Source: a virus. From it: a DNA stretch of 46,611 nucleotides. How positions within the stretch are numbered: position 1 is the stretch's first letter; every line of letters starts with the position of its first letter. The notes under the pieces were generated by a model. That model had not been told where the DNA came from. It saw only the letters and a program-made list of their open reading frames with translations, and made no database searches. The translations under genes and the position numbers were made by a program. This document shows positions 12,501 to 46,611 of the stretch, one piece after another. The DNA lies in IMG/VR virus record IMGVR_UViG_3300030107_006213, positions 1 through 46,611 of that record; one strand, given 5' to 3'.

Positions 12501-14306
12501 AGCAGCAATCCATTCACCATCTGATGAGATATAACCTCCGTTTATAGATAAAGCTAAAGCTCCTCTTGCTCCTGCTAAAGTAGAACCACTAGATGTGTTT
12601 CCTTTTGCATAAAAAGATAACTTATAACTTTGTCCTGATTTTATATTATCTTTAGGTATACTTTGAGTTATTAAATGATTTTTACATTTTTGAGGATAAA
12701 CACTTCCACCAGCTGTTATTGCAACAGGAGTTGTGCCAAATATTCCTCTTTGAACATTAACTATGTTTGAATCAATAGACAAAACTTTCATATATTCTGT
12801 AGCAGCATCAAGCTCAGTATCGGAATCTGCAATAAAAGCTATTATATCTCCTGATGAAAAATAAGTTTCCATACTCCTGTTAAATTGTAATTTATTATCA
12901 TTTGGGTCACTAGTTATACTGGTAGTTAAAGCTTTTGATATTGCAGCGTATTCAGATGTTAATATAATAAAAGGAACTCCAGACTGAAAAGGATAATAAA
13001 AAGCAGAAGCATCAGCAGTTTCCCAGGGCTGTGTTTCATCCCATAAACCTCCACTTACACCGCCTGTTATTGCAATCTTTGTGCTTGTTTGATTTGAATA
13101 AGAATTATTAGTCATAGCTTGATGAAGCCAATCATTAACTTTATAGTTTGAACTTGCTCCTGGAGTAATCGTATTATCTGAAACTACATGAAAAAAAGAG
13201 TAATTTTTAATCATATTACATTCAGTATAAACAGTATCAGAACTTTCTGTTTCTTGCACTGGAGCTGTATCTACAGTGAGAGTAGTATCTCCTCCAGATT
13301 CTACCTTTTTTAATATTTTAAAACTTTTACCATTATTTGAAGAAGCTGCCGAATGATACATTGTAATAGTATCTCCTTCATTAAAACTTAAAGAAGTTAC
13401 ATTGGCAAATGTAATTGTTTTATCTGTAGCATTGTAAGATATTGTCTGACTAGCGCTAGCAGTATTTATTTTTCCATTTTTCTTTATCTCTCCAGACGAA
13501 CACTTTGTCATATATTGACCATGTCCACCAATATTATTACCAGAATAATCACTCCAACCATTAAGTAGACAAGTACCCATCTTAGTTTCAGCTTGACTAC
13601 CACTTGCAACAGCAGTAATTCTATTCATGTAAAATTCATATTCAGTATCAGTAGCTAATGTTGTTGTTTGTGTTCCAAAGCATCTTCTTTTTACATATAT
13701 ATTATTATTAGTACTATCAATACTTAGAACTTTTATTATTTCGAAATTTGCTCTACCTGTAAAAGAAGAGCCTGATGCACAAAAAGATATATAATCATTT
13801 TTTTGTATATTGGCTACTTTAACAAAATCATCTGAACCACTAGACATATCATTACCAGTAGCATGGTATGGAATAACTCCATCATCTTTGCCTAAAGCAG
13901 AAGTAGGTTGAAAAGTTAAAGCTGATACTCTTTCAAAATGAGGTTCTATATCTCTTATTAACAAAGTCTCTATAACACCTTTAGTTCCCATAAACCTAAT
14001 TCTAGATGTAGATTTATCTTGAAAAATACTAATATCATCAAGTCTAACTCTAGGGAAATTAGCTCCAGAACTATCCTCGCTATTTAAATCTAAAGAACCC
14101 CAAGTAACAGCATCATCCATTGTTGTAAAATTATCATTAGATACATATAAAAGTTTGTCTGTTTTTATAGCATCTAATATTCCATTTTCTGAGTTTGGAT
14201 TTATATTTAAAGAAAAAGAAGGAGTATCTGCAGGTATATCTCTTTCAGATATATTAGATACTGTTCCAGAAGTAAAATTCTTTATTTCCTTTAATTGTCT
14301 AGGCAT
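6519..14306 (-). CDS. Giant tail protein with propeller-like C-terminal region, 2595 aa
   Basis: This is the largest gene wholly inside the window. The protein is Ser/Thr/Asp/Asn-rich, with no membrane segments and a polar N-terminus (MPRQLKEIKNFTSGTVSNIS). The last 600 or so residues hold repeated 'gRLYAFDNSNIYRINPENL' and 'YGMFFADLNGAYMHNGQ' type blades with the motif LYRRNG, as in beta-propeller tail-hub or needle-associated proteins of short-tailed phages. The middle contains a D-rich loop (DNDKDGVIDGTG) that may bind calcium. No tape-measure gene exists in the window, so a short tail is likely and this protein probably builds much of it. Function inferred. Confidence 0.75.
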   Translation of the reverse strand: MPRQLKEIKNFTSGTVSNISERDIPADTPSFSLNINPNSENGILDAIKTDKLLYVSNDNFTTMDDAVTWGSLDLNSEDSSGANFPRVRLDDISIFQDKSTSRIRFMGTKGVIETLLIRDIEPHFERVSALTFQPTSALGKDDGVIPYHATGNDMSSGSDDFVKVANIQKNDYISFCASGSSFTGRANFEIIKVLSIDSTNNNIYVKRRCFGTQTTTLATDTEYEFYMNRITAVASGSQAETKMGTCLLNGWSDYSGNNIGGHGQYMTKCSSGEIKKNGKINTASASQTISYNATDKTITFANVTSLSFNEGDTITMYHSAASSNNGKSFKILKKVESGGDTTLTVDTAPVQETESSDTVYTECNMIKNYSFFHVVSDNTITPGASSNYKVNDWLHQAMTNNSYSNQTSTKIAITGGVSGGLWDETQPWETADASAFYYPFQSGVPFIILTSEYAAISKALTTSITSDPNDNKLQFNRSMETYFSSGDIIAFIADSDTELDAATEYMKVLSIDSNIVNVQRGIFGTTPVAITAGGSVYPQKCKNHLITQSIPKDNIKSGQSYKLSFYAKGNTSSGSTLAGARGALALSINGGYISSDGEWIAANNDIKNGIEDTDNKTISQEDRWIGFESLDNAYSDNAGNSNKLDDKWRKFVLKFTIPSNVSITTDLKIELSSRGKEASNVLIDVITLNEDTLIYPYVQDESKVSITGQINNSGSQDLVIYDNIKKSISVITGFSSKGNPNTHTTNSDILSSDLAATTIYSSGNVSMVSRNREVHIGFGGGNTDSPPQWVGYLNHKLFGIDNTNVLYQDEDTVHNYDKISASSFTKICLAGEHEYLSATWDNSASTLDITHTAHSMNAGDNIVIREWGDASHTWEGEGVWVVTSTPDANSVVCKRRTQLDKNPSNNNFLQDDGNRDGNTGKICYRPYYYYACKEGENSIYRITPDSRIKSDLSVDTDYVAGTIERSQPLSIPVQSICTYYAKEASSGTAATNGGRIYALSANSDSVLVVDVQLKYDEWQSSYTTEYGPMTLAFKSFKWSNERTDGDIASGVGIFGGTADETSPTISYAGKLSDIVETKGPNELFIHAATNSNHNEPDHFDTRLWVQSHHGDDESFTSGDRFLFCGLTNETNTDGGDTLFMADRTPPLTSVEGDLPVTFENEFGGEQPEFKGYPGAILHQNRFYSIDYSNVGGERKMEKIQPLNFPWFKGNGNAILDNLEGGLEGSIYSRYNFGYNVGFYMDKEMVVENGAVEYPPILPKIKIAKYGLFPMSDNDKDGVIDGTGIIMPSTTTLPDTVDNRKMGPYGEKHRRITAHCVGIIGGSDVSWIRNHGVCFKDDNQYFQQAAADFSPGGPATFEGGHAQDTPELIQFEKFIAICPDVHFGDMQMESSLTAHASGSAAYDIPDSSVSTDKATKIQLVSGETTANLQAGDPIYIDDANYGATYIVKIIDSDEFVVPVLFNASVHDAVIYPMTLAKQHNDTTFSGQGNCGSIFPEINSQAYHWAFDTENPDNGSVFTDMTYDEDNLALNFPGNYVKTFYTTPTFTGLGRDVSLTDGSSLTDGLYPGFINKLDKLNYRAGVMLRPFDTHENTFEDLIIGNNISVDMPSYCDANYHVKNGSNLHYHVNNTAVNNNFASRLFISSPQEDESSDGQIYSSIYICDLNNVFPDKGSCLGSLNDDDEFTYTSPGIQSQTAQAEAWDVYLTATLPATPYVHVDSNDYPSAHLHPYIILPGTGTGSLNDDLFKSDSKWRNTNAFSGMCITVVDNATNIQQTRQIVWSKTIQAGVSAADSDDIYVFVNYPFGHEPAQGDRIYITSPHVAATAPVRLLGGKVGNTLEESHGIGTLGMTDPIIDKDIYKLQSNFNNSVTIELTSSGTTATGTTGYNHNLSTNDKVYIYNTGHSGTVIVEGYEGVYSITVTGPKTFTYTTTGSGLTSSTALLKTISEINKEEINSISNPLYIQSSNPIIKSTFGGLDTRKAKTATISSVADNSDDITLTASANHLFDVGDSVTFDSGDADQDGNYIIKADNGTTTFDITNTDSTNSSGTAYTNQWELIVAETSGKGRIGELRSGLNNWDRGNTKSNIIRNDLSTAEEGNVYLSALEENVSIEPSGISGSGDYFLKNTKYQYKISLIYDGYQEGPLSNSLWEKELEIDTYPKMNITITLKDHSKRLTHVCLYRRNGVNDLYSLVKEVRTDTGWVLDEGKYSRQIMDNGTLGATYEARTGLSEVLDTIKIKYGISEEVSGYLFVGDCNHNRIKKASNMIFRSKPGMFSIFDYANDFLVLKSKPTALANFNGRLYAFDNSNIYRINPENLSIEDVFEGVGCINQNSVIVTEYGMFFADLNGAYMHNGQAPVKISDKISQAGGTDTDFYSEFECSDNVRDLSWNNLVRGSNNPNVYVTYDSDSNCALFISQTNDNINKGTLSSKDIVSVRKSFCWSYNITKQRWDLWELSEDSTIGKPFIDTNSNVCIPIDNTIYQYRGGSSKRYWTWVSKKITMGEDSIVKVFNKIKLNGVTNNLNLSGSNKESSNRLLVVTSEGAISNSDNTYTAVSNDHSDYKLSGSNKKGRWMQFKLEEMTDTLDSVGIIFRRKSTK

Positions 14307-30438: not shown

Positions 30439-30440
30439 TA

Positions 30441-30558
30441 ATTAATAGATGAGGTTCAAGAGTAGGTAAGTTTGAGGTAACATATAACTCTACGCAACTT
30501 GAGACGGGTGGTGGTGAGCTAAGGTGAAAGGTGAGAGTCCTTCGTGTAATCTATTAAT
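30441..30558 (+). ncRNA. 118-nt structured RNA element
   Basis: ATTAATAGAT (30441-30450) pairs perfectly with ATCTATTAAT (30549-30558). The interior is G-rich compared with its surroundings and includes possible helices TTCAAG/CTTGAG and AGAGT/ACTCT and a terminal AAGG/CCTT hairpin. No ORF of useful length exists. The closing stem begins 2 nt after the stop of the 97-residue gene. Candidate non-coding RNA or processing signal. Confidence 0.55.
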
Positions 30559-30563
30559 AAAAT

Positions 30564-30710
30564 TAAGTGAGTGTTGTGTAACCGTGAGGCCACAGAGGGT
30601 TTTTATGTATCATAAGTAAAAAGGGTTTTTGAGTGTTTGTTCATATTTCGCTCTATGTTTTCCCTTGATTTCAACTACTTATACCTTTCACCCTTGTTAG
30701 CACTCACTTA
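30564..30710 (+). ncRNA. 147-nt structured RNA element
   Basis: TAAGTGAGTG (30564-30573) pairs perfectly with CACTCACTTA (30701-30710). Nested inside are ATAAGTA/TACTTAT (30612-30618 with 30676-30682) and AAGGG/CCCTT (30621-30625 with 30662-30666), which form one extended arm. There is no ORF. It is separated from the previous element by only 5 nt, so the two make a roughly 270-nt non-coding block immediately upstream of the membrane-anchor and Ubl genes. Confidence 0.6.
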
Positions 30711-30731
30711 TAATTTGGAAAGGAGTAACAA

Positions 30732-30893
30732 ATGGAGAGTTATAATGATTATCTACTAAGCGTGGTAGATGTCTTAATTGAAAATAATATTAAATTAAGG
30801 AGTAAAAATGCAAAGAAGAACAAACCAAGCAATATTCGCAATATTAGCAATGTTGACAATATGGATAGTAATTCACACATCAAGAATAAATAA
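30732..30893 (+). CDS. Possible small protein overlapping next gene, 53 aa
   Basis: A strong ribosome site (AAAGGAGTAACAA) precedes this ATG. The first 25 residues (MESYNDYLLSVVDVLIENNI) look protein-like. The rest is read out of frame over the start of the 125-residue gene and is Asn/Lys-rich, as expected of a non-coding frame. It may be a short leader ORF whose translation couples to the membrane-protein gene. Confidence 0.4.
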   Translation: MESYNDYLLSVVDVLIENNIKLRSKNAKKNKPSNIRNISNVDNMDSNSHIKNK

Positions 30894-31185
30894 TATAGAT
30901 TCTGATGTAACAGTATTAAATAGGACATCAAACTCTATGATGAATAGATTAATAGAGCTTGAAAGTAAGGAAACAGATGAAATGTCTTATTATGATATAT
31001 ATGAAGAGCAAAACAGATATTTAAAAAGTTTTGAGAGTGACTTAACATTTAAGGAAACTTTCAAAAAAATGAGAGCAGAGTATGGTGCTGGACATATCTT
31101 TGATTGGAATGAGAGATTATTCACAACATATTATGCTGAAGAGTTAATGTTAACCAAAATAGCTAAAGAAGGGAGTAATAGATGA
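30808..31185 (+). CDS. Membrane-anchored coiled-coil protein coupled to Ubl gene, 125 aa
   Basis: Ribosome site AAGGAG precedes the ATG by 5 nt. Residues 8-22 (AIFAILAMLTIWIVI) form a membrane anchor with a short basic N-terminus (MQRRTNQ). Next comes a coiled-coil-like segment (IDSDVTVLNRTSNSMMNRLI) and a C-terminal motif FKKMRAEYGAGHIFDWNERL that resembles 'F..MR...G.G..F.W.gr.Y.T' segments seen in other phage small proteins. Its stop overlaps the Ubl start as ATGA, so the two are probably made together. It could localise the conjugation system to the membrane or be a substrate; neither is shown. Confidence 0.7.
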   Translation: MQRRTNQAIFAILAMLTIWIVIHTSRINNIDSDVTVLNRTSNSMMNRLIELESKETDEMSYYDIYEEQNRYLKSFESDLTFKETFKKMRAEYGAGHIFDWNERLFTTYYAEELMLTKIAKEGSNR

Positions 31186-31379
31186 ATATTAATCTATTAG
31201 TAAATGGCGAATTCGTTTCAAGAGATGTAACATCTACAACAGTAGGTGCATTGAGAAATGAATTAGAAATACCAGCTGATGCAAATGTAATGGTTGGTGG
31301 AACTATCAGACAAAATGATTTTGAATTGTCTGACGGTGATATTGTTGCTTATGCAAGTAATAATAAAGTAGGTGGATAA
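31182..31379 (+). CDS. Ubiquitin-like beta-grasp modifier with native Gly-Gly end, 65 aa
   Basis: The 65-residue product has the layout of a compact beta-grasp Ubl: two N-terminal strands (INLLVNGEFVSRDV), the helix (TVGALRNELEI), further strands around VMVGGTIRQN, the 'LSDGDIVAYAS' hairpin typical of MoaD/ThiS/Ubl proteins, and a flexible tail NNKVGG. It ends exactly at Gly-Gly, so no protease is needed to mature it. The start is fixed by the ATGA overlap with the membrane-anchor gene. E2-like, JAB and E1-like genes follow, which makes protein conjugation more likely than sulfur transfer. Confidence 0.82.
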   Translation: MNINLLVNGEFVSRDVTSTTVGALRNELEIPADANVMVGGTIRQNDFELSDGDIVAYASNNKVGG

Positions 31380-31397
31380 GGGTAATAATTACCCTTA
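31377..31397 (+). repeat. Palindromic hairpin over Ubl stop codon
   Basis: TAAGGGTAAT and ATTACCCTTA are perfect complements around a single A, and can form a 9-bp stem with a 3-nt loop. The 5' arm begins with the Ubl stop codon. It could protect the 3' end of a processed ubl message or limit read-through. Confidence 0.6.
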
Positions 31398-31404
31398 ATT
31401 AACT

Positions 31405-31485
31405 TTAAATGAGAGCCAATAACTGGTCCTGTAAGTCCCGAAACATAGGAATGAAGGCAAAGGAATATGTGAGGCTCTCATTTAA
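31405..31485 (+). ncRNA. Structured spacer between Ubl and E2 genes
   Basis: TTAAATGAGAGCC (31405-31417) pairs perfectly over 13 bp with GGCTCTCATTTAA (31473-31485), enclosing 55 nt with a possible TCCT/AGGA inner helix. No ORF. It ends 17 nt before the E2 ribosome site (AAAGGAG). By position it can separate ubl and E2 expression, for example as an RNase III-type cleavage site or translation control element. Confidence 0.65.
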
Positions 31486-31513
31486 TTAAACAGAGATAAA
31501 GAAAGGAGTAACC

Positions 31514-33097
31514 ATGATATTTTATAATGGTCAAGATGAAGTAACTGTAAATGAAATTGATAAATTAAAAGATTTATCACAAGAAGAGACAAACAATTTA
31601 GCATGTGGACCTCAAGACGCATTTTTCAATAAATTAGATACTGTTAATAATACATTGACAAATCTTGAAATAAAGAATTTAGATGTTAATGATAAATGGA
31701 ATTGGAAACCAGGAGCTTATAAGATAATAAGAGAATATCTTTTAAATAAGCTTCAAATAGATAAAAAATGTCAAAGTTTAACAAAGCTAATTGATAGAAC
31801 AAGGGATAATGTTAATTACACTAATTATCTTTTTAGACAAATAAGAGACATGGAAATGGAAAAAAGTGCTCTTAAAAGATTAGGAGTATTAAAGAATGTT
31901 GATATTGAGGAGTTTAAAGAAAAATGTATTGAATTTGTTAAAAGAGTAGAAGAACAATGCTTGAAAGCTTCTGAAATGACTAAAGGAAATGTTACTATTA
32001 ATACTTTTGTAAGTGATTTAGAAACAAGAGTTCCAAGAATATATTATAATATTGTATTAAATAATTTAACATTATCTATATATGATGGAGATAAAATGAT
32101 TCAAGAAATACCTTTAGGACAAATTCATATCATAATTACACAGAATCTTAGAACTAAGCTAGGAGTTAAGAATAAAGATATGTCTTTGCTTGGTGTATAT
32201 AAAGATTCTCAATTTGATGAAGCTAAATATCCTTATATTTCATCTGGTTATAGTCATACTGATTATTCAACTGTATGTTTAGATAAACATTATGATGATG
32301 TTCAAAATGCTATTTATAAAAATGATTTAGTATCTTTATCATTTGTATTAATGCAATGGGCTCAATATTATCATATAAGTCATTCTAATCCATATAATCA
32401 ACCAAGTTTACTTAAATTTGGTATGCCAGGAAATTATAGTGATGAATATTCAGCAACTCAATCAAGTTCAATGGTTAATTCAAAAAGTGATGATATTCTT
32501 AGAAATAGCTTAAAAAGATTGGATTTGAACTATATGGAATCTAATGAATATTATGTTGACTGTTTAGACTTTATTGAATGTAAATATAGAGGCCTTAATA
32601 ATCATTATTTGAGAAGAAAATCAAATGTAGAATTACAAGGAACTGATTATTACTGTAAAATGGAGTCTTTAATATTTCTATTATTAGATAATATTATGCA
32701 TGATGCTCATAAACCTAATTCAATATGGAATATAAGTGATGATTGTTCTATGATTGCTGGAGCTAGTATAAGTATAGGGAACAATAGTTATTCAGAAGAT
32801 GAACAGCAAATAACAGATATTGAAGAAACAGAAAGTGCTGTTATTTGGACTTTATTTAATTATCTTATAAATAAACCTTTCTATAATGGTTTCAAAACTA
32901 TAGATAGAGATAAAGTTATATTAGATGATATGAATCCATATGATTGTAAATATGTTTTTGAATATCTTGAAAAGAATAATCTTCTAGAAGATAAGAAAGT
33001 AGAAGAACCTACGAAAGTAAATGAGATTATAAATGATGCAGAAAAAATGAAGAAACTAATGAAACAGTGGGCGTATAGCTCAGAAAGGAGTGCGTAA
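31514..33097 (+). CDS. E2-like ubiquitin-conjugating protein, multidomain, 527 aa
   Basis: Residues 170-290 fit the E2 (UBC-like) core: strands RIYYNIVLNNLTLSIY and GQIHIIITQN, then KYPYISSG, and STVCLDKHYDDV with C255 as the likely catalytic cysteine. 'HPxI...G.ICLD' is the canonical E2 active-site block. The N-terminal 165 residues are helical (RQIRDMEMEKSALKRLGVLK) and the C-terminal 230 are unrecognised, so the protein is over three times the usual E2 length and may include a target-recognition part. Good ribosome site (AAAGGAG). The stop overlaps the JAB start as TAATG. Expected role: accept Ubl from the E1 and pass it to targets. Confidence 0.72.
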   Translation: MIFYNGQDEVTVNEIDKLKDLSQEETNNLACGPQDAFFNKLDTVNNTLTNLEIKNLDVNDKWNWKPGAYKIIREYLLNKLQIDKKCQSLTKLIDRTRDNVNYTNYLFRQIRDMEMEKSALKRLGVLKNVDIEEFKEKCIEFVKRVEEQCLKASEMTKGNVTINTFVSDLETRVPRIYYNIVLNNLTLSIYDGDKMIQEIPLGQIHIIITQNLRTKLGVKNKDMSLLGVYKDSQFDEAKYPYISSGYSHTDYSTVCLDKHYDDVQNAIYKNDLVSLSFVLMQWAQYYHISHSNPYNQPSLLKFGMPGNYSDEYSATQSSSMVNSKSDDILRNSLKRLDLNYMESNEYYVDCLDFIECKYRGLNNHYLRRKSNVELQGTDYYCKMESLIFLLLDNIMHDAHKPNSIWNISDDCSMIAGASISIGNNSYSEDEQQITDIEETESAVIWTLFNYLINKPFYNGFKTIDRDKVILDDMNPYDCKYVFEYLEKNNLLEDKKVEEPTKVNEIINDAEKMKKLMKQWAYSSERSA

Positions 33098-34005
33098 TGA
33101 ATATAGAAGATATATTCTACATATCAGAGAAAGATTGGTATACTCTTCAAGCATGGGCTACAATAGCTTATGAAGAAGATAAAAATGAAATCTCTGGTTT
33201 AATGACAGCAATACCACAAAAAGATGGTAGAATTGAAGTGGGAAATGTTGAAATACTTAAGCAGGAAAATACTGGTACTAATACTGAGCTTGACGGAGAG
33301 GCTGTTAGTGAGTATATGATGAGATATGCTATGAAATATAAAGACAAAAATATGAAGTTTGTCTGGTGGCATTCACATCATACTATGGGAGCATTTTGGA
33401 GTGGAACTGATGAGAGAGAAATAGATGCATGGAAGAATGAGAGTTATTCTTTGGCATTAGTTATCAATCTAAAAGAAGAGTATCTATTTAGAGTAAGCTT
33501 TTGGAAACATAATGGCTTACCTATGGAAAAACATATAGATACTACTCTTAACATAGAAAGAGAAAAGCCTCTTGTTAATATCACAAAGAAGATGAAGAAA
33601 GACTACAATGAGCTTTGTACATCACCTCAAATAGTAACTTACAATCAAGGTTGGACAAAACCTAATTGGGCTATTAATCAAAATACTTTTAACTTTGTTA
33701 ATGATAAGACAAGAGTAACAACAAATGTAAGAGAAGCTTATGAAGAATGTTTAGGCGAATGTGAGAAAATGCAAGAAAGCTTCTTAGATGGAACTCTTTC
33801 ATGTAAGGAATTCAAAAAGAAAGTTAAGAGTATTAATAAGGTGTGTAAAGAAAAGAAGTTTCCTTTTAATGTCAAAGAATTCAATCTCAATAAGAATGAG
33901 TTATTAAATAAATTATTAGAGCTTTTTCCTGCTGATTTGATTGAATATGAAGATAATAATGTTAAATTGGAACTTGAACCAAATGGAGGTTACTTATGGA
34001 CATAA
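33097..34005 (+). CDS. JAMM/JAB-domain deconjugating isopeptidase, 302 aa
   Basis: The complete JAMM zinc-peptidase signature is present: catalytic E31 in EISGLMTA and H92-S-H94-x7-S102-x2-D105 in WWHSHHTMGAFWSGTDE. The domain covers roughly residues 8-150. The C-terminal half (150-302) is Lys/Asn/Glu-rich and unrecognised, with a helical stretch REAYEECLGECEKMQESFLD. Because the Ubl already ends in Gly-Gly, removal of Ubl from targets is a better guess than precursor processing. The gene is coupled to E2 (TAATG) and overlaps the E1 gene by 10 nt. Confidence 0.88.
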   Translation: MNIEDIFYISEKDWYTLQAWATIAYEEDKNEISGLMTAIPQKDGRIEVGNVEILKQENTGTNTELDGEAVSEYMMRYAMKYKDKNMKFVWWHSHHTMGAFWSGTDEREIDAWKNESYSLALVINLKEEYLFRVSFWKHNGLPMEKHIDTTLNIEREKPLVNITKKMKKDYNELCTSPQIVTYNQGWTKPNWAINQNTFNFVNDKTRVTTNVREAYEECLGECEKMQESFLDGTLSCKEFKKKVKSINKVCKEKKFPFNVKEFNLNKNELLNKLLELFPADLIEYEDNNVKLELEPNGGYLWT

Positions 34006-34661
34006 ATATGAGGAGTAGAGGCCTTGTAGACAACTTAAATCAGTTCAATTATCATATATTAGGCTGCGGTGCAATAGGTAGTGCCGCAGCTACCCAATTA
34101 GTTAGAATGGGTGCAGAAAACTTCTGTTTATATGATAATGATGTAGTTGATACAGGAAATGTAGGAGTTTCACAATACACATTGTATGATGTAGGTCATA
34201 AAAAGGTTGATATGTTAAAATCTAAAATATTAGATGTTAATAATTCAGCTGAAGTAATGTGTGCTGATGAAATGTTTAGCAATTATATCTATTTGAATGA
34301 TAATGATATAATTATACTTGGTTTTGATAGCATGAAATCTAGATTAGATGCTGTTAAAGCAATAACTAGCTGGAGAGAAAGTAAACCATTACTTCTAATT
34401 GATGGAAGAATGGGAGCTGAACATTATCAACAGTATGTAATACTAAAGCCTACATTAGCAAAATACAAGGAAATATGGTATAGTGATGATGAAGGAAGCG
34501 AAGAACCTTGCAATATGAAAGCTACATCTTATTGTAGTAATATGAGTGGTAGTTTTATAGCAAATGCTGTAAGGAAAATCGTTACAGTTCAACCTTACGA
34601 AGAGTTTTTATCATTTCATTTTCCAACAATGACTATTGATAAAAATACCTTGGTAAAGTAA
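33996..34661 (+). CDS. E1/ThiF-like Ubl-activating enzyme, 221 aa
   Basis: A Rossmann-type adenylyltransferase with nucleotide loop GCGAIGS (23-29), acidic ribose contacts in YDNDVVD (D47, D49), the Lys after 'DVG' (K69/K70) and 'ILGFDSMKSR' (D111, R116), all as in MoeB/ThiF/E1 proteins. It is short (221 residues) and has only two late cysteines (C172, C180), either of which could be the thioester site. The usual NxxRQ block reads NVGVSQ, with no Arg. No CxxC zinc pair is seen. It should adenylate the Ubl C-terminus. Confidence 0.85.
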   Translation: MDINMRSRGLVDNLNQFNYHILGCGAIGSAAATQLVRMGAENFCLYDNDVVDTGNVGVSQYTLYDVGHKKVDMLKSKILDVNNSAEVMCADEMFSNYIYLNDNDIIILGFDSMKSRLDAVKAITSWRESKPLLLIDGRMGAEHYQQYVILKPTLAKYKEIWYSDDEGSEEPCNMKATSYCSNMSGSFIANAVRKIVTVQPYEEFLSFHFPTMTIDKNTLVK

Positions 34662-34740: not shown

Positions 34741-35415
34741 ATGGCGTTAAAAAAAGTCAAAAGGAAAGCTGTCTCTCAGAATCCAAAAACAATGCTATTA
34801 TATGGAGCACCAAAAGTAGGTAAAACTACAGCTCTAAGTCAATTAGAAGATTGTTTAATAATTGATACAGAAAATGGTGCAAATATGGTAGATGGATACA
34901 TAGAGACTGTGTCAAATAGAGAGGAGCTCATATCTTTATTACAAGAAGCTAAGGAAGGTCATGAATATAAGTATGCTGCGATAGATACTATAGACAAAAT
35001 AGCTATATGGGCTGAAAAAGCAATATGTGAACAAGAAAATGTAACAGCAATAGCTGATTTAGCATTTGGAAAAGGCTTTGGTATGGTTAGAGAAAAAGTC
35101 TTAAATACAGTTAACATATTAAAAGAGATATTTCCTCATGTGATAATAATCGGACATAGGAAATGGGCTAAAGCTATTGTAGATAGTAAAGCTATAGTTG
35201 AGCCAGAAAGCTTAGATTTAACAGGAAAGTTAAAGAATATGCTAATGGCTGATTGTGATGCTATAGGTTATGTTTATAGGAATGAAGAGAATAGTAAATT
35301 AATGGTAACATTCCAAGCTAATGAAGCCTTAGAAGCAGGTAGTAGAAGTCCTCACTTGAGAGGCAAAGATGTCGAATTAAAATGGAATAATATATATAAA
35401 AAGGAGAGTAAATAA
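34741..35415 (+). CDS. Sak4-like RecA-fold ATPase / single-strand annealing factor, 224 aa
   Basis: Walker A is GAPKVGKTT (22-30) near the N-terminus, and a Walker B-like strand ends in YAAIDTIDK (D82). The length, the 'IIDTENGANMV' strand after the P-loop and the C-terminal 'HLRGKDVELKWNN' match the phage NTP-binding group that includes Sak4 recombinases. An SSB-like gene follows directly, the usual partner of Sak4. Role: single-strand annealing or recombination during phage replication. It follows the hairpin after the E1 gene. Confidence 0.78.
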   Translation: MALKKVKRKAVSQNPKTMLLYGAPKVGKTTALSQLEDCLIIDTENGANMVDGYIETVSNREELISLLQEAKEGHEYKYAAIDTIDKIAIWAEKAICEQENVTAIADLAFGKGFGMVREKVLNTVNILKEIFPHVIIIGHRKWAKAIVDSKAIVEPESLDLTGKLKNMLMADCDAIGYVYRNEENSKLMVTFQANEALEAGSRSPHLRGKDVELKWNNIYKKESK

Positions 35416-36011
35416 TGGCGATATTTAAACCTGAAATGAAAAGTAGTGATTTTACAAGCTTTACAGGAGTTTGTGAATTCGGTATATTAGAATTTAAAGA
35501 TAGGTCAGGAGAGTTTGATTGGGCTGACTTATTTCTTGAAGTTTTAGTAAAACAAAAAGGTAGTGATTTTGATAGAACATTACAAATCAAAGGTTCTTTT
35601 GATAAAGAGAATGGTAAAATCACTGGTGGTAGCACCTTAAAGAAAATGTATCATTTCTTTGAACAAATCGGTTGTGATGCTGGTCTAAATGTAAATGGTG
35701 GTTGGGAGACAGCTGAAGGAGAAGAAATAGAAGATATTGCAAAATATCTTAATAAACATCATGTTCATGCAAATGGAACAGATACTCCTAATCTAGATTA
35801 TTTAGGTTACTTTTATAAAGAGCAACCTAAAGTTCCAGGTGGAAAATCTTATACTAGAGTATTAGCTAGAGTATATAAGAAAAATGATGCTAATATTACT
35901 AAGCTAGAAGATGATGTTAAATGGATGAAATCTAAAGGATATTTGAAAGAGTTTATAGAAGGTGAAACTCAACAAGCTCCTACAAGTGGGAATGCTTTAG
36001 GTAATCTATAA
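35415..36011 (+). CDS. SSB-like protein, 198 aa
   Basis: A 198-residue protein with an OB-like beta core (EFGILEFKDRSGEFDWADLF, then LEVLVKQKGSDFDRTLQIKG) and a polar C-terminal tail (GETQQAPTSGNALGNL). Its place between Sak4 and the primase-helicase, with TAATG coupling on both sides, is the usual position of a phage single-strand-binding protein. The tail lacks the classical acidic DDDIPF end. Family assignment is by context and pattern. Confidence 0.65.
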   Translation: MAIFKPEMKSSDFTSFTGVCEFGILEFKDRSGEFDWADLFLEVLVKQKGSDFDRTLQIKGSFDKENGKITGGSTLKKMYHFFEQIGCDAGLNVNGGWETAEGEEIEDIAKYLNKHHVHANGTDTPNLDYLGYFYKEQPKVPGGKSYTRVLARVYKKNDANITKLEDDVKWMKSKGYLKEFIEGETQQAPTSGNALGNL

Positions 36012-37765
36012 TGTATGTCGAGATAGCTAAAGGAACTCCTGGAAACAGAGGGTATTTAATCGATAAGAATGATTTAGCAAAGTATATTGATAAGTTTCCT
36101 TTATATAGAAGTGTTTATTTATATGATGAAAACGCTTTAGAATATGTAGAGAAAACTGGTAGTTTAAAGAATTACTTTGGAGTTAGACATATCGATAAAA
36201 TACCTATTGATATTGATAAAGGAGATAATACAGATGATAAAACTTTAGATGTCTTGAGAGGTATTATTTTAGAGCTAGAGGAGGCCGATATTACGGAAGA
36301 AAGTTTCCAATGTTACTTCTCTGGCTCTGGATACCACATTGATTTAGCTGGAGGTTTGTTTAATTTCAAGCCTGGAGTAGACCTTCCTTATATTGTCAAA
36401 CAAACACTAAGGAAGTTAATACCGCATTTAGATTCATCCATATATATGCGAACTGGTATTTATAGAGTTCAGCATACTATTAACCAAAAGACAAACCTAT
36501 ATAAAATACCTTTATATAGAAATGAGGTTATGAATTTAGATGTAGCTGATATATTAAAGCTAGCTAAAGTAAATCGTGTTGACTTTGACTATCATGAATT
36601 AACAGGAGATTCAGAGTTAGAACGAACTGTTATAACAGAGGTTCCTGATGTGCAAGTCTTTAATAAAGTATCAGAACCAACCAAAATAGTTCCTTGTGTT
36701 CAATCTATGCTAAATAAAGGAGCAATCGAAGGAAATAGGCATATAACAGCTATGAGAATTATCAGTCATTTTAAAAGACATGGTATTCCTAGCCATTATG
36801 CTAAAATCATGATGCTACATTGGAATAATAAAAGCGTAGAAGAAAAGCAAGTAATGGAAATGGTAGAAAATGTTTATAACAGAAACTATAAATATGGATG
36901 TCAAGATTCGATAATGGCAGAACATTGTAAAACTCAATGTATGTTCTTTAATAAAAAGGACTATTTAATAGATGTTAAATCATCTGATGAAATGCAAGGG
37001 GAATTACACGAAAGGCTTACTACTGATTTTAGTGGTAAAACAATAGACCTTGGAAGATGTTTAGGTATTAGTAAAGAATCAGTAATATATCCAGGTGAAC
37101 TAGTAACTATATTTGGACCAACAGGTTCTAATAAAACTACTTTTGCTCAGAACCTAGCACTTGGTGTAGATTTTGTCAATAATAGAATAGTAAAAGAATG
37201 GCAAATACCTACATTATTTCTAAGTTTAGAGCTATCATCTTGGTATATGCACAGAAGACACCTACAAATAGTATCTGGAGTTTCAAAGCAAGAAGCAAAC
37301 GATAATTACGAAGAGTTATACAAAGAAAATGAGGATAGATTATCACATCTTATGGTTCAAACTATTTCTCCCACATTAGATAAAATACAAGAGAAAGTTA
37401 GAGAGTTAGAACCATCGCTAGTAATAGTAGATTATATTGATTTAGTAGACACTCCAATGGCATACAGAGGAGAATATGAAAAAATCAAATATATATCACA
37501 TGGATTGTCAAATATGGCAGTTAACAACGATATGATAGTTATCCAAATATCGCAAGTAAGTAGAGAATATAGTCGGAATGAAGTGCTTGACCTATATGCA
37601 GGTAAAGGGTCTGGAGCAATTGAAAACGCCTCTAGAAAAGTGATTGGACTTAATGGACAATCAGATTCAGCAACTAGAGCTGTTAGATTATTCAAAAACA
37701 CCGATGGAGAACTGTTTGATACTGAAGTCGAATGGACTCCTTCATTTAGATTAAGGAGAGTATAA
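36011..37765 (+). CDS. AEP primase-helicase fusion, 584 aa
   Basis: The N-terminal 220 residues hold archaeo-eukaryotic primase motifs: IPIDIDKGD (D67, D69), FSGSGYHID (103-111) and HLDSSIY (D141), followed by RTGIYRVQHTINQKT. A Cys set (C229, C297, C306, C310) suggests a zinc or Fe-S site between the domains. The C-terminal 230 residues are a DnaB/RecA-like ATPase with Walker A GPTGSNKTT (369-377) and Walker B SLVIVDY. It should prime and unwind DNA for host polymerase, since no phage polymerase is seen. Confidence 0.85.
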   Translation: MYVEIAKGTPGNRGYLIDKNDLAKYIDKFPLYRSVYLYDENALEYVEKTGSLKNYFGVRHIDKIPIDIDKGDNTDDKTLDVLRGIILELEEADITEESFQCYFSGSGYHIDLAGGLFNFKPGVDLPYIVKQTLRKLIPHLDSSIYMRTGIYRVQHTINQKTNLYKIPLYRNEVMNLDVADILKLAKVNRVDFDYHELTGDSELERTVITEVPDVQVFNKVSEPTKIVPCVQSMLNKGAIEGNRHITAMRIISHFKRHGIPSHYAKIMMLHWNNKSVEEKQVMEMVENVYNRNYKYGCQDSIMAEHCKTQCMFFNKKDYLIDVKSSDEMQGELHERLTTDFSGKTIDLGRCLGISKESVIYPGELVTIFGPTGSNKTTFAQNLALGVDFVNNRIVKEWQIPTLFLSLELSSWYMHRRHLQIVSGVSKQEANDNYEELYKENEDRLSHLMVQTISPTLDKIQEKVRELEPSLVIVDYIDLVDTPMAYRGEYEKIKYISHGLSNMAVNNDMIVIQISQVSREYSRNEVLDLYAGKGSGAIENASRKVIGLNGQSDSATRAVRLFKNTDGELFDTEVEWTPSFRLRRV

Positions 37766-40940: not shown

Positions 40941-41125
40941 TTAAATGCGAAAAATGTGGTGAGTTAATAGGACATAGTGCTCCTATTTATAAAGCATCTA
41001 GAGGGTTTTTAGGTGAAGATGGGACATTTCACGAGGATGAATCAGTTATTATTCATATGGAATGTTACTATAATTACACTTATGACCCTTTTTATGCTAT
41101 AGAACAGAAAATAAAAAACAGTTAG
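40937..41125 (+). CDS. Zinc-knuckle protein, last early gene, 62 aa
   Basis: A 62-residue ORF with CEKC (4-7) near the N-terminus and HMEC downstream (H40, C43), giving a C-C-H-C metal site around a Gly-rich loop (SRGFLGEDGTFHEDES). This looks like a small treble clef. It overlaps the previous stop (ATGA). Its own stop overlaps by 4 nt the stop of the convergent minus-strand giant gene, which ends the early block. Confidence 0.65.
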   Translation: MIKCEKCGELIGHSAPIYKASRGFLGEDGTFHEDESVIIHMECYYNYTYDPFYAIEQKIKNS

Positions 41126-44100
41126 AATATATCTCCCAAACCTCTTCCTGGAGATGGTGAAACATACGATTCACCTTCTCTAATTCTTTTTGATTCTTTA
41201 GAGAATCCAGTAAGTGGAACACCAAATACTTTCTCAGGAATTCTCATAGGATTCTTGATAATAGATGTTTCAGGATGACCTACATCACGAAGCATTCTTC
41301 CAAAAGGAAATAAAGTCCATACATAATAATCAGCTAATTTTGTATAATCATCTTCAGCAAATTCTCTTATAACAGATATAGGGAATCTAGCTAATGGAGG
41401 AGTTATCATTTGAAGAGGAGCTATAGAGGAAGGATAAGTTCCAAAGAAAGCTCTCTCTTTATCTTTATCATCACCAAAAATCCACTCAGCTGTATCTTGT
41501 AGCCAGTTATAAGGTGCTGGTATTGTTTGTCCAAATAAAGAATACATAAAGACAGAACCTAAAGCCATCACAAACATATCTGCTTGCATAGTTCTTTCAA
41601 ATTTTCTCATAGCTTCAGTACCAGGTTTGAATCCATACAATTTAGCTTGTTTTCTTACATCGTTTCTAAATCTAACAGCATTCCAACTCCATAATTGAAA
41701 TCTAGAAAACATTTTACCTAAAGCTGTAGCAGCAAAAGCTGGTCTTTCAGCTGCATTATATAAAAACTGAGTAGCTTTAACTCCTTTTTTAGCAAGTTCA
41801 ATTAAAATAGGATTGTTTATATTTTTTATAGAACCACCTAATCTTTCCCAAGCCTTTATATAGTGAGCCATAAAAGCATCTCTTCTTAGGATTCGTTCAG
41901 GAACAGACATAAATTTAGCCGCTTTATTCATTATTGCTTTAGAGATTCCATATTTATTTGCCAAAGCAACCATATCTATTTTACTAATTTCTTTTAAACC
42001 TGTAGATTTATTTGCCAAATCAGTAACAAAAGCTTTAGCTCTACTTCCTGAAAAATCTTTATCTAATCCAAATTGATGTAAAGTAGCTTCTGGAACAACA
42101 CCATGAGACTCTACAAACTCCATAACTTTATCCCAACTAGTCCATTCAGGATTTATTCTTTGCAATTCTTTTAAACTTCTAGCCTTTCTAAGAGGCTCAT
42201 AACCTACAGATTGAAATGTATGCATAGTTCCACCAAATACATTATTTATAGGAGTTTTAGGGTGCGTCATTAAAGTAGCTAATTCAAATTTTGCCTCTAA
42301 ATTACTCCATCTTTGAGCATCCCAAGCAGTTTTACCTAAATAAGATTCAACAACTTTTATATCTTCTTTTGACATATTTTCAAAGTCTAGCTTACCTTTT
42401 TTCATTTTTAATTGTTTTGGAATCTTAGCAGATAAACCCATTTTATTCATAGCATTATTTACAAAATTGGCAAATCTATTATCAGCCCACCAACCATAAG
42501 GAGATGCACTTAGTTTTAATGATTTGTCATTATACATTTTATCGCTTATTATAGTAGGCATACCCATAGCTCTTTTAGCATATAAGCTCCAGAAATTTAA
42601 CCAACCTTTTACTAGCTCCCTACCTTCAGCTCTTTCTTTATCATTACCTTTTACCCATTTTTTATTCATATGCTCTCTCATTTGATGTAAAGTGTATCTA
42701 GATGTCATATTTGCTAATTGTCTAAAAGCTGTTCTAGATAAGTTTCTTATATATAAATGAGCATTTTCAACACCTACTGAGTATCCACCAGTATGATGTT
42801 CTCTTTTATGCATACTATTAAAAGTTTCATTAACATTCTCTAGTAAGAAAGAATTATTCTCTTTTTGTTTTTTCTTTTGAGCTAAATCAAGCAAAGTATC
42901 TCCAAATAAATCTCTATCCATTTTATCCATCATTTCATAATCAGCTATATCCCAATCACCATTTCTAGTTCTATATTTAAGATATATTTTCTTTTGTCTT
43001 TCTTGATATTCTTCTTGACTTAAATTCTTTCTTTCTTTTTTTAGTTCAGCTAATTCAAAATCTCTAGATTCTTTATGCTTTTTATTGCTTAGAAAATAAT
43101 GAGGAAACCAACCTTTTCTAAAATCGGTAGTAAATATCTCTAAATTAGCATATCTCTCAGCTCTTTCTGAACGATTAGGTTGATATGCTTTTCTAAGATT
43201 AAATGGGAGTTTATAATAATCATCAACAGTAATTTCAGAACCTTTCTTATATCCATATGTTTTGACATAAGATGTAGGAGGTAATAAATCAATCATCATA
43301 GACCTATTAATATGCCTCATTCCATCTATCCCTACTTTTAAACTACTTAAAATATGCTGATTATCTCCTCTTTCGTATGCTTTTTCTAGTCTTCTTAAAA
43401 ATAACTTCCAATCGTATTTAGGTTTAGTTGGATTTGGCTTATGAGCATCATACCAACCTTCTTGATACTCAGTTAAAGCTCCTTCTTCTCCTCTAGTAAG
43501 TAAATATGTGCTATTAGAAAACTCTTGCCATTTTCTAACAGCTCTTTTTAAAAGCTGATGACCAGTAAATTCTTCTCTCTCCTTACCAGAACCAATAATA
43601 TATTTCTTTGTTTTTAAAGCAGGCCAATTATGCTTTTCAACAGATTCTTTCCATTGTTTTTCATATATAGGTGATTCTGATTTATTCTGTAGTTCGTGGT
43701 ATCTCATTGCCAAATTCCATATAGCTTCACCGTCAGGTATTTGGTCCAAAAATGATATTTTATTGTTCAGTTGATTTTGTTTTGTCAAAGAAAATCCATC
43801 TTCTATTTCATGCAACCTTCCTATCATATTCCTAATAGTATCACCAAAATAAGTAGGTTTTAAGACATATCCTTCTTTAAATTTAGCTATACCATCTTCT
43901 TGAAAGAAAGCTTTAACCTTCAGCATTTTTAAATCTCTTGCCATCATATTCTTATTAACTTGTTCTGGCATACCCATAAAATCCCAACCTGAAACTTTAG
44001 CAGAGTTAACTTCGTCTATTTGTCTTTCTATTTGTTTACGAATAGTTCCTTTTCTATTCATTTCAAACCATCTATTAAGCCTTTTAAAATCCTCTATATT

Positions 44101-46611
44101 CATCTGGTTTAAGTTCTTAGTAACTATAGGGTCAATATCGGAGTATATACCTGCTACAAGTTGATTTAAATCCATTTTAGAGTAATCAGTTATTTGTTTT
44201 AAGTTATGTTCAAGCTCACTAATTACTTGTCTTTGCGTTGATGTAAGCTCTACACCTTTGTTAGACAAACCTTCATAACCAGACATATCAACTGCTTCTT
44301 TATCTATACTAAAAACATTTTCTTTAGGGTCTACTTCTTTTAATTCTTTATTAAATTGCTTTAATGCATCGCTATTTTCAACAACATCTGACATAGTTTT
44401 CTTGAAATATTTGCCTTTCAATGAAAAGAAATCTTGTATATTTTTAGGAGAAACACTTTCCGACTCATAAGCTAGTTGAGTAGTGCTAGTTTTAGAACCA
44501 TCTTCGTACAATTGGTCTTTAATCATTCTGTTAAACTCGTTATTACCAGTTAATTTGTCAAGTTTAAAAATGTTTTTTATTTTATCATGAACATTCCTGT
44601 CTCTTAAAGAGCCTATTAACAAATAATCAAACAATTTTTTACCAGCAGGAGAAAGAGATTCTTTATATTTATTTATAAAAATATCTAATTGACCCATATC
44701 TAATAATTTAGTTCTTTTTTCTTTGGAAAAATCTTTTATACTTGTTTCACCTAAAACAGCTAATTGAACTTCTCTCATTTTTTTAAAGATATGTCTTTGA
44801 GCTGGAGTCAAATCATCAAACATAGCTCCTTGAGTTCTTCTTTGAATTTGATTTAATATACTTGTCTGTTTAAATGCTTCAACATTTTTAGATATATCTT
44901 TAACCTCACTATTCTTTAAGCTCTTTGATTTAATTAAAGGCTCTATAAGCTCTAAAGTAACCATATCGTGCAAATCATCAGCCAATCTTCTATCAGCTTC
45001 TTTTAATGTATTAATAAGATAGTCTTTCATTATTTCTTTAGTTAAGTCTTTTCTCTTAACAACATTACCTTTGAAATCTTTATAAATAGGTTCTATCCCA
45101 TACCCACCATCTTTTATACTTTTTCTCAAAACTTTATCTGTAGATAAGTAAGCTTTAGAAAAGTCTTCAATAACATATGGCTCATGTAATTTTTCTTTAG
45201 ATGCAAAATAAACCTCCTTTGAAAAAGGAGTTTTTAAATATGTTCTTCCAATTAAAGGCTTTAACCAGTTAAATTTAGCAGCTTTTTCATTAGTAATATC
45301 ATATAGATTTTTAACTGCTTCTGAATTAATTCTATTAAATATACTAAAATTAAGGTCTATATTTTTTAATGTTAAAGCCATTTTAGGTAAAGCTGTATCT
45401 ATAGCATCAACATCAAATGTTTCTATTTCGTTTAATCTTTCTACTTTTTCAGCATTTGTCCAGCTTCTATCTCTGTTCCAGTTCCTGCCAAATAAAGCTT
45501 CGTTAAACCCTTTTATTTTATTGTAAGAAGATAAATCCTCATAAGTTTCAGCCTTTTCTTTTTTAGATGATTTTATTCTTTGAACCTTAAAAAATTCTGA
45601 CTCTGGTATGTCAATAAATCCTTTTTTAGTTATTTTTTGATATTTCATTTCAAAATAAGCGTTTTCCAATATCTCTCTTAAAGTGCTAATATTTTTAAGG
45701 CCTGTCATATCCATAGGGTCAGCACCATAAGCTACTAAAGCACTCGACAATAATCTTTGTCTTTCATTTGGGTTTTTAGCTGAAAGAACTTGTTTTAATA
45801 TTGTGCCATCTTGATATGATATAACTTTTATATCTTCAGACATGTTATTTGTTTTTCTTACAGAGCTCCAAGCAGCTCTCATGTTTTGAGTCATGCTAAC
45901 TATAGGAGCTAGGAAATTTCTTGATTCAACAGCTTTTTCACCTGTATAAAGCCTTACTCCTGGAAAAAACTTAGCATAAGGCACAGTTTTATCTTTACCC
46001 TGCATAATATCTATTATTTCAGGAGGTATACCCATTTCTTTTAATTCTTTTTCACCTATTAAAAGCTCATTTTTAAACATCTCTTTAACATTAGCTAACT
46101 CAGAGCCTTCTCTTTTTCTTTTAATTTCAGTTTTTAGATGCTTTAAAGGTTGCTTCAGAAGAGCGCTTTTTATTTTATCATATGCTTCTTTAGCAGTAAA
46201 TTTACCATATTTTGGTTCATATTTAACAAGATAAGCTTCAGGATTTAAAGCAAAAGTCATACCTTTTTCCCAACCTTCTGCTATCCACTGTTCATAGTCT
46301 CTTCCTAATATATATTCTTTCTTACCATTATCTTCAGGCATACTTTCTTTTAAATTTTTTATATACCTCAAGTAATCTCTGTTTAATAGTCTTCCATATT
46401 CACGACCGTTTACAGTCCCTAAGTATTTTCCTACTTCTGATTTAGTAACAGGTTTTGATTTACTTTTTGGAATAATATATTCATCTTTTTGAGCTCTAAA
46501 CATTTCTTTAAAACTCTTTTTCATACCAAAACCTTCTCCTGTTTCAGATTTTCCTCCAAAATAGACAAATGATTCATCACCATCTAAATCAGCTCCACCT
46601 TCAGCTCTTAA
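41122..46611 (-). CDS. Giant internal virion/ejection-like protein (start outside window)
   Basis: The frame is open to the window edge: upstream of the first internal Met (46524) it still reads GGADLDGDESFVYFGGKSE, a coding-like stretch, so the true start lies beyond 46611. With 1..129 joined in frame the protein has 1872 residues. It is largely helical and charged, with coiled-coil parts (DELKEVDPKENVF-like and LAELKKERKNLSQEEYQERQ). The C-terminal 250 residues have hydrophobic segments (MQADMFVMALGSVFMYSLFG) and end SPSPGRGLGDIF. Length and build suit DNA-ejection or internal core proteins of short-tailed phages, as does the lack of a tape measure. Enzymatic motifs were not found. Confidence 0.7.
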   Translation of the reverse strand, partial: LRAEGGADLDGDESFVYFGGKSETGEGFGMKKSFKEMFRAQKDEYIIPKSKSKPVTKSEVGKYLGTVNGREYGRLLNRDYLRYIKNLKESMPEDNGKKEYILGRDYEQWIAEGWEKGMTFALNPEAYLVKYEPKYGKFTAKEAYDKIKSALLKQPLKHLKTEIKRKREGSELANVKEMFKNELLIGEKELKEMGIPPEIIDIMQGKDKTVPYAKFFPGVRLYTGEKAVESRNFLAPIVSMTQNMRAAWSSVRKTNNMSEDIKVISYQDGTILKQVLSAKNPNERQRLLSSALVAYGADPMDMTGLKNISTLREILENAYFEMKYQKITKKGFIDIPESEFFKVQRIKSSKKEKAETYEDLSSYNKIKGFNEALFGRNWNRDRSWTNAEKVERLNEIETFDVDAIDTALPKMALTLKNIDLNFSIFNRINSEAVKNLYDITNEKAAKFNWLKPLIGRTYLKTPFSKEVYFASKEKLHEPYVIEDFSKAYLSTDKVLRKSIKDGGYGIEPIYKDFKGNVVKRKDLTKEIMKDYLINTLKEADRRLADDLHDMVTLELIEPLIKSKSLKNSEVKDISKNVEAFKQTSILNQIQRRTQGAMFDDLTPAQRHIFKKMREVQLAVLGETSIKDFSKEKRTKLLDMGQLDIFINKYKESLSPAGKKLFDYLLIGSLRDRNVHDKIKNIFKLDKLTGNNEFNRMIKDQLYEDGSKTSTTQLAYESESVSPKNIQDFFSLKGKYFKKTMSDVVENSDALKQFNKELKEVDPKENVFSIDKEAVDMSGYEGLSNKGVELTSTQRQVISELEHNLKQITDYSKMDLNQLVAGIYSDIDPIVTKNLNQMNIEDFKRLNRWFEMNRKGTIRKQIERQIDEVNSAKVSGWDFMGMPEQVNKNMMARDLKMLKVKAFFQEDGIAKFKEGYVLKPTYFGDTIRNMIGRLHEIEDGFSLTKQNQLNNKISFLDQIPDGEAIWNLAMRYHELQNKSESPIYEKQWKESVEKHNWPALKTKKYIIGSGKEREEFTGHQLLKRAVRKWQEFSNSTYLLTRGEEGALTEYQEGWYDAHKPNPTKPKYDWKLFLRRLEKAYERGDNQHILSSLKVGIDGMRHINRSMMIDLLPPTSYVKTYGYKKGSEITVDDYYKLPFNLRKAYQPNRSERAERYANLEIFTTDFRKGWFPHYFLSNKKHKESRDFELAELKKERKNLSQEEYQERQKKIYLKYRTRNGDWDIADYEMMDKMDRDLFGDTLLDLAQKKKQKENNSFLLENVNETFNSMHKREHHTGGYSVGVENAHLYIRNLSRTAFRQLANMTSRYTLHQMREHMNKKWVKGNDKERAEGRELVKGWLNFWSLYAKRAMGMPTIISDKMYNDKSLKLSASPYGWWADNRFANFVNNAMNKMGLSAKIPKQLKMKKGKLDFENMSKEDIKVVESYLGKTAWDAQRWSNLEAKFELATLMTHPKTPINNVFGGTMHTFQSVGYEPLRKARSLKELQRINPEWTSWDKVMEFVESHGVVPEATLHQFGLDKDFSGSRAKAFVTDLANKSTGLKEISKIDMVALANKYGISKAIMNKAAKFMSVPERILRRDAFMAHYIKAWERLGGSIKNINNPILIELAKKGVKATQFLYNAAERPAFAATALGKMFSRFQLWSWNAVRFRNDVRKQAKLYGFKPGTEAMRKFERTMQADMFVMALGSVFMYSLFGQTIPAPYNWLQDTAEWIFGDDKDKERAFFGTYPSSIAPLQMITPPLARFPISVIREFAEDDYTKLADYYVWTLFPFGRMLRDVGHPETSIIKNPMRIPEKVFGVPLTGFSKESKRIREGESYVSPSPGRGLGDIF

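Follow-up and report, generated by a model that had tools for sequence, protein, structure and literature searches.

To our knowledge, the ubiquitin-like conjugation systems of prokaryotes are bacterial defence or plasmid systems, the machinery being otherwise eukaryotic. The present study concerns a 46.6-kb virus record (IMG/VR IMGVR_UViG_3300030107_006213; "the window" below is the whole stretch of 46,611 nucleotides), in which four adjacent genes encode a ubiquitin-like protein (Ubl), an E2-like protein, a JAB metalloprotease and an E1-like enzyme. An original prediction, made from the letters of the DNA, had likened this module to the Bil operons of bacteria and to PRTRC-type clusters of plasmids. 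Bil also holds Ubl, E2, JAB and E1 in one operon: BilA has two Ubl domains, BilD combines inactive and active adenylation domains with a Cys domain, and BilB carries a CEHH motif, with Glu, His and His downstream of the Cys (PMC11354881). The PRTRC cluster, type 6d of Iyer et al. 2006, encodes Ubl, JAB, E1, E2 and an alpha-helical protein, with the same four activities in separate genes (PMC1779556). Phages lambda and T1 carry a Ubl (TAPI) and a JAB protein (TAPK), but these lack E1 and E2 partners and belong to a structural rather than a replication operon (PMC1779556). Our searches of open-licence papers turned up no account of a full four-gene set in a phage, the lambda/T1 pair being the sole phage example. 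The results below suggest that the window probably encodes a phage-specific module for ubiquitin-like conjugation and deconjugation, expressed together with the DNA-replication genes.

The four predicted genes proved to be real open reading frames (ORFs), adjacent and on the same strand:

31182..31379 (+), Ubl modifier, a 65-aa beta-grasp protein with the C-terminus K-V-G-G
31514..33097 (+), E2-like protein of 527 aa; Cys255, in YPYIS..TVCLD, is the candidate catalytic residue, and the C-terminal part is variable
31895..32455 (+), predicted E2/UEV-like core coding region of that gene (residues 128-314)
33097..34005 (+), JAB/JAMM metalloprotease of 302 aa, candidate deconjugase or Ubl-maturing protease
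33996..34661 (+), E1-like adenylating enzyme of 221 aa with a single ThiF domain and the candidate catalytic residue C172

By the features tested, this module is neither Bil nor PRTRC. The window Ubl is one domain where BilA has two, the E1-like protein has one ThiF domain where BilD has two adenylation domains and a Cys domain, and no conserved E/H/H was seen shortly past C255 in 87 sequences of the E2-like protein. Scores against the NCBIfam PRTRC models fell far short (PRTRC_ThiF, 29.6 versus 144.75 bits; PRTRC_A, 16.5 versus 101.8 bits), and Prok-E2_D (PF14460), which we take to be the PRTRC E2 family, had no match at E <= 1 in any of 5 phage records. Membership of Bil or PRTRC was dropped on these grounds. 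Unlike Bil, the window module is phage-borne and replication-linked and, unlike PRTRC, it was not found on plasmids. The ThiF/MoeB equivalog models were not reached either (74.7 versus 159, 57.9 versus 152.2 and 26.5 versus 266 bits), and the paired CxxC zinc motifs of MoeB and ThiF are absent, the only conserved cysteines of the window E1 being C24, C172 and C180. Cap2, of the type II cyclic-oligonucleotide-based antiphage signalling system (CBASS), was among the best E1 sequence matches and the E2-core fold matches; however, in the Cap2-Cap3 system E1 and E2 are fused and a separate Ubl is lacking, and no cGAS-like gene was seen in the window.

An E1 query against viral contigs returned 225 relatives, of which 80 were kept, and later searches enlarged this set; the contigs are metagenomic. 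Residue conservation was first scored in 43-79 full-length relatives per gene, divergent members being added later. At the level of sequence, the identities of the Ubl, JAB and E1-like proteins were confirmed by profiles and by catalytic residues that do not vary across some 70-110 relatives of each. The Ubl matched Pfam ThiS (PF02597) at 3e-4 and 21.8 bits, just under the 22.5-bit cut-off; G64-G65 are 100% conserved in full-length relatives and K-x-G-G is found in 73/73 unique marine relatives, 38 of which extend beyond GG. The protein thus has the character of a beta-grasp modifier with a C-terminal Gly. The JAB protein matched PF01398 over the cut-off (4e-5), with PSMD14/RPN11 as best PDB profile match; E31 (n=69), H92, S93, H94, S102 and D105 are 100% conserved in full-length relatives, and the JAB/JAMM signature HxHx7SxxD was present in 101/101 marine relatives after divergent members were added. 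The E1-like protein matched Pfam ThiF (PF00899) at 2e-19 and, among PDB profiles, MccB, UBA5, Cap2 and BubCD, the last of these from the Bil/Bub systems. Its GCGAIGS, a nucleotide-binding GxGxxG, and D47, N55, K70, D111 and C172 are 100% conserved in full-length relatives; the candidate catalytic C172 lies in a CxxKxT motif kept in 109/109 relatives, after the adenylation core, in what the alignment suggests is the region of the UBA5-type catalytic Cys. The residues named beforehand (Ubl GG, VC255LD, JAB E31/H92/H94/S102/D105 and E1 GCGAIGS) were all present and 100% conserved, and such invariance argues that they are not there by chance. Against the reference relative L002, the ratio of nonsynonymous to synonymous substitution (dN/dS) was about 0.08 for the Ubl, 0.12 for E1 and 0.15 for JAB, and 0.52 for the E2-like gene; by this measure all four genes are under purifying selection.

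The 527-aa protein had no usable family match in Pfam, PHROGs, NCBIfam, PADLOC or PDB profiles. Cys255 is nevertheless invariant in the full-length relatives, whose proteins are mostly 25-40% identical to one another, and in 87/87 once divergent ones are included. The AlphaFold (AF2) model of the full-length protein reached a predicted local distance difference test score (pLDDT) of 85.9, and that of the core (residues 128-314) a pLDDT of 90.0 with a predicted template modelling score (pTM) of 0.87. For both models the top PDB match in Foldseek was the ubiquitin-bound ubiquitin E2 variant (UEV) domain of TSG101, and about 20 of the 50 PDB matches listed for the core were UEV or E2 chains or complexes, including TSG101, Vps23, UbcA1, Ubc6, UbcH5B and Cap2, a few chain identities being deduced from title and length. 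In the viral library, the first match outside the protein's own family was a 435-residue protein of the crAss-like phage cr128_1 (probability 0.85, E 0.076), which is the length of the E2-like protein in the cr128_1 genome. With an invariant Cys255, a confident model, UEV/E2 chains as top matches at E >= 0.13 and the homology to an HPH..C family described below, the protein is probably a member of the E2 superfamily. The E2-like gene is the fastest-evolving of the four, above all past residue 312: median identity to the window is 43% in the N-terminal part, 39% in the core and 18% in the C-terminal part, as expected of a part that chooses the target. Within it, at residues ~325-362 (window 32486-32599), four cysteines are 86-100% conserved in most relatives, and the window copy keeps part of them; from the sequence pattern this stretch is likely a zinc site.

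Profile comparison gave a second line of evidence. About 30 loci with a window-type Sak4 gene (and with SSB and primase-helicase where covered) carry a different full quartet in the same slot (L276:1818-5422 and L283-L310), made up of a Ubl ending in NKSG, an E2-like protein, a JAB protein and a CxxKxT E1. That the four genes swap as a set argues that they work together. The E2-like protein of this type shows the motif HPH[I/V/T]xxGxxC, in which H91, P92, H93, G97 and C100 are invariant (19/19) and Cys100 sits seven residues past the second His of HPH; HPH..G..C is close to what we take to be the eukaryotic E2 signature. In hhalign, L276-type against window-type profiles scored 46 (probability 69-73, E 3e-5 to 5e-5), window-type plus divergent members against the E2-like proteins of crAss-like phages scored 35, and the combined profile against the latter 42. 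Four crAss sequences alone gave nothing, nor did close marine relatives alone (E 0.16); since only broader alignments gave a signal, the scores were checked against column-shuffled, block-shuffled and reversed profiles and against unrelated families. The maxima over 60 column and 60 block shuffles each were <= 35 for the L276/window pair and <= 29 for the other pairs, each real score lay above its shuffle maximum, and 18 comparisons with unrelated families stayed <= 21.5. Window Cys255 (87/87) aligned with L276-type C100 (19/19). As judged from these profiles, the 527-aa protein has homologues in two further phage families that occupy the same slot.

The module is a core part of a marine phage lineage. 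Among 166 marine loci, 101 hold all four genes, and none with enough upstream DNA misses any; when loci were fetched by the primase-helicase alone, the module was present whenever the upstream DNA was covered. Close relatives almost without exception keep the order Ubl, E2-like, JAB, E1, Sak4, SSB-position gene and primase-helicase; in a few that are more distant, another gene set lies between E1 and primase-helicase. Within the sensitivity of these scans, 84,980 bacterial and archaeal genomes gave one match only, on a 3.7-kb contig of a Spirochaetia metagenome-assembled genome, and a plasmid search gave none. The window itself has tailed-phage (caudovirus) genes for terminase (PHROG 38), portal (PHROG 156) and major head protein. 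Together, the caudovirus genome, the replication-gene neighbours in relatives and the near-absence from bacteria and plasmids support the earlier view that the module belongs to the phage and is linked to its replication. The suggestion that a phage with all four parts is unusual did not survive: the set is common to crAss-like and Flavobacterium phages as well.

Indeed, the nearest true relatives of the window module are unrecognised quartets in these phages, whose E1 proteins are ~30% identical to that of the window (crAss-like and Flavobacterium psychrophilum phages). In the Crassvirales the order is again Ubl, E2-like, JAB, E1, in the replication region, as in crAss001 (gp79-gp76) and DAC15 (gp91-gp88), both with cultured Bacteroides hosts (DAC15 is a B. 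thetaiotaomicron phage). Here and in the Flavobacterium phages the E1 is annotated "thiamine biosynthesis protein" (ThiF) and the JAB protein "metalloprotease domain"; a survey of crAss phages makes no mention of ThiF, JAB or ubiquitin (PMC7886860). The crAss and marine JAB profiles match at E 4e-12, and the E2-like comparison scores over all controls. By contrast, the crAss Ubl has an N-terminal Ubl-like stretch ending in K-x-SG and then a long C-terminal tail, its E2-like motif is YMHSH...C-[TL]-G, and the next genes encode a 250-aa protein and a uracil-DNA glycosylase where marine phages have Sak4-SSB. The crAss E2-like C198 is invariant (70/70), the crAss Ubl Gly is 100% conserved, and among 78 crAss-type contigs every one that reaches far enough holds the quartet, short ends aside. 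The crAss-like and Flavobacterium quartets share this Ubl and E2-like pattern and adjoin DNA primase and uracil-DNA glycosylase genes, the crAss-like neighbourhood also including nuclease and ribonucleotide reductase genes. The ~250-aa protein after E1 in crAss-like phages (L086:6642-7454 and equivalents) had no Pfam match. In the crAss-like phage cr126_1 (L090:1290-2213), the Ubl-position protein has a ribosomal L7/L12 C-terminal domain after the Ubl (Pfam 5e-12). The annotation of Flavobacterium phage Fpv1 (L087:3653-5945) breaks the JAB gene in two; between the halves of the domain lies a reverse-strand ORF (4169-4918) that may be an intron or a homing insert. In the Xanthomonas jumbo phage PhiXhv-12 (L311:1736-5612), a candidate Ubl-E2-E1 triad without JAB adjoins topoisomerase genes; its members are a protein ending in KASGG, a Cys-rich one of 892 aa that shows IHPHM...GSLCLG, and a ThiF protein. 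Erwinia phage Ep032 has a similar E1. The 892-aa protein gave no convincing profile alignment with the other E2-like families.

We infer the following cycle. Where needed, the JAB protease would cut the Ubl precursor back to Gly-Gly; the single-domain E1 would adenylate the Ubl Gly with ATP and bind it to C172 through a thioester, in the manner of UBA5-type E1s; the Ubl would pass to Cys255 of the E2-like protein, which would link it to an amine on either a phage replication protein or a host protein, the fast-evolving C-terminal part of the E2-like protein probably picking the target; and the JAB enzyme could take the Ubl off again. Residues past the conserved Gly, in 38/73 marine and in crAss Ubls, call for a maturing protease, for which JAB is the candidate; in the window the Ubl already terminates at GG, which makes JAB more likely a deconjugase there. 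The constant replication-gene neighbourhood suggests that the target lies in phage DNA replication or is a host factor encountered during it. Several observations weigh against such a cycle. No E2 family model matches the 527-aa protein, and the Foldseek E2/UEV matches are individually weak (E >= 0.13, TM-scores <= 0.43). The E2 assignment of the original prediction gained from the core model and from homology to the HPH...C family; absence of an E2 fold, the outcome that was to overturn it, was not what we found. The window flap reads YPYIS, with YPY in place of the E2 HPN, and hence lacks the catalytic Asn typical of E2s; standard flap residues (His) are also absent from some bacterial E2-like families (PMC1779556). 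In the E1-like protein, V58 aligns with MoeB R73, an arginine thus absent, and the ATP chemistry may differ in detail. Finally, the closest E1 profile families are ThiF/MoeB, which keeps sulfur transfer in play.

On that last alternative, a ThiS/MoaD-like Ubl would serve as sulfur carrier, E1 making its thiocarboxylate and JAB releasing product or precursor; the role of a sulfur-using or scaffold enzyme, for instance in tRNA or nucleotide thio-modification, would fall to the 527-aa protein. The closest Pfam/NCBIfam models are indeed ThiS and ThiF, and operons of sulfur metabolism with JAB, ThiS and ThiF are known (PMC1779556). However, no sulfur-metabolism or rhodanese gene was seen in the conserved neighbourhood, an E1 with three cysteines only cannot hold the paired CxxC motifs, and the fourth protein combines an E2-like core with an invariant Cys next to HP[YH]; we thus judge this explanation unlikely. 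An inactive UEV/RWD-like adaptor, with the Ubl conjugated directly from E1 or by a host enzyme, is likewise unlikely: the best fold matches, the UEV domains of TSG101 and Vps23, do lack a catalytic Cys, and PolyUbl operons carry inactive E2-like domains (PMC1779556), but Cys255, crAss C198 and L276-type C100 are invariant and aligned.

The other two alternatives involve host defence. Phage E1, E2 and Ubl might act as decoys, poisoning conjugation by host Bil or type II CBASS or out-competing it, with JAB stripping host conjugates. The E1 profile matches to Cap2 and BubCD and the rapid evolution of the E2-like gene would suit such a role; a module that all relatives carry next to their replication genes looks more like a core function than an arms-race add-on, and we regard the decoy as quite improbable. 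A Bil-like host defence acquired as cargo and aimed at rival phages seems very improbable indeed. Bil, active on phages, has the same four activities according to the literature, whereas the module lies within the replication operon in all checkable relatives and is thus core, bacterial and plasmid homologues amount to one short contig, and the Bil architecture is contradicted by a single-domain E1 and a single Ubl. Host-derived cargo was dropped for its core location and want of bacterial homologues.

The module is flanked by, or encloses, the following features:

30808..31185 (+), gene for a 125-aa protein that runs into the start of Ubl; an upstream neighbour conserved in many relatives, perhaps outside the module
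31380..31513 (+), intergenic hairpin region between Ubl and E2-like gene, with a 13-bp stem
34741..37765 (+), downstream replication/recombination block
34741-35415 (+), Sak4-like gene
35415-36011 (+), SSB-position gene
36011-37765 (+), primase-helicase gene

The predicted position before Sak4, SSB and primase-helicase thus holds, in relatives too, except that the SSB gene is without a family match in the present searches. Coupling by overlapping starts and stops applies to the E2-like/JAB and JAB/E1 pairs; Ubl and E2-like gene, by contrast, lie 134 nt apart. This gap contains a strong hairpin (RNA fold, -31.4 kcal/mol, z -2.97, equally stable shuffles 0/200), which could tune the expression of modifier versus enzymes; Rfam gave no match for the region, and no unusual RNA structure was found at 30439-30731. 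A Shine-Dalgarno sequence precedes each of the four genes, as it does 21/32 genes across the window. The claim of a local base composition needs a small correction, the G+C content being 29% in the module and 32% in the whole window. Elsewhere, the minus strand carries giant ORFs at 41122-46524 (1800 aa) and 6519-14306 (2595 aa).

We lean, less firmly than for the window itself, towards a wider view: the marine lineage, the Crassvirales and Flavobacterium phages, perhaps with jumbo phages, are only distantly related, and each would keep a fixed, phage-specific E1-E2-Ubl-JAB set in the replication operon that tags a replisome or host protein during infection. Because crAss001 and DAC15 carry the quartet and have cultured hosts, this idea is directly testable. 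If true, it would mean that genes so far labelled as thiamine biosynthesis make up a complete ubiquitin-like system of viruses. The quartets also add E2-like families missed by current profile libraries, which bear on how ubiquitin arose and spread early on. That two broad groups, the crAss-like gut phages and the marine lineage, have kept the kit suggests that protein tagging may be a normal step of their infection.

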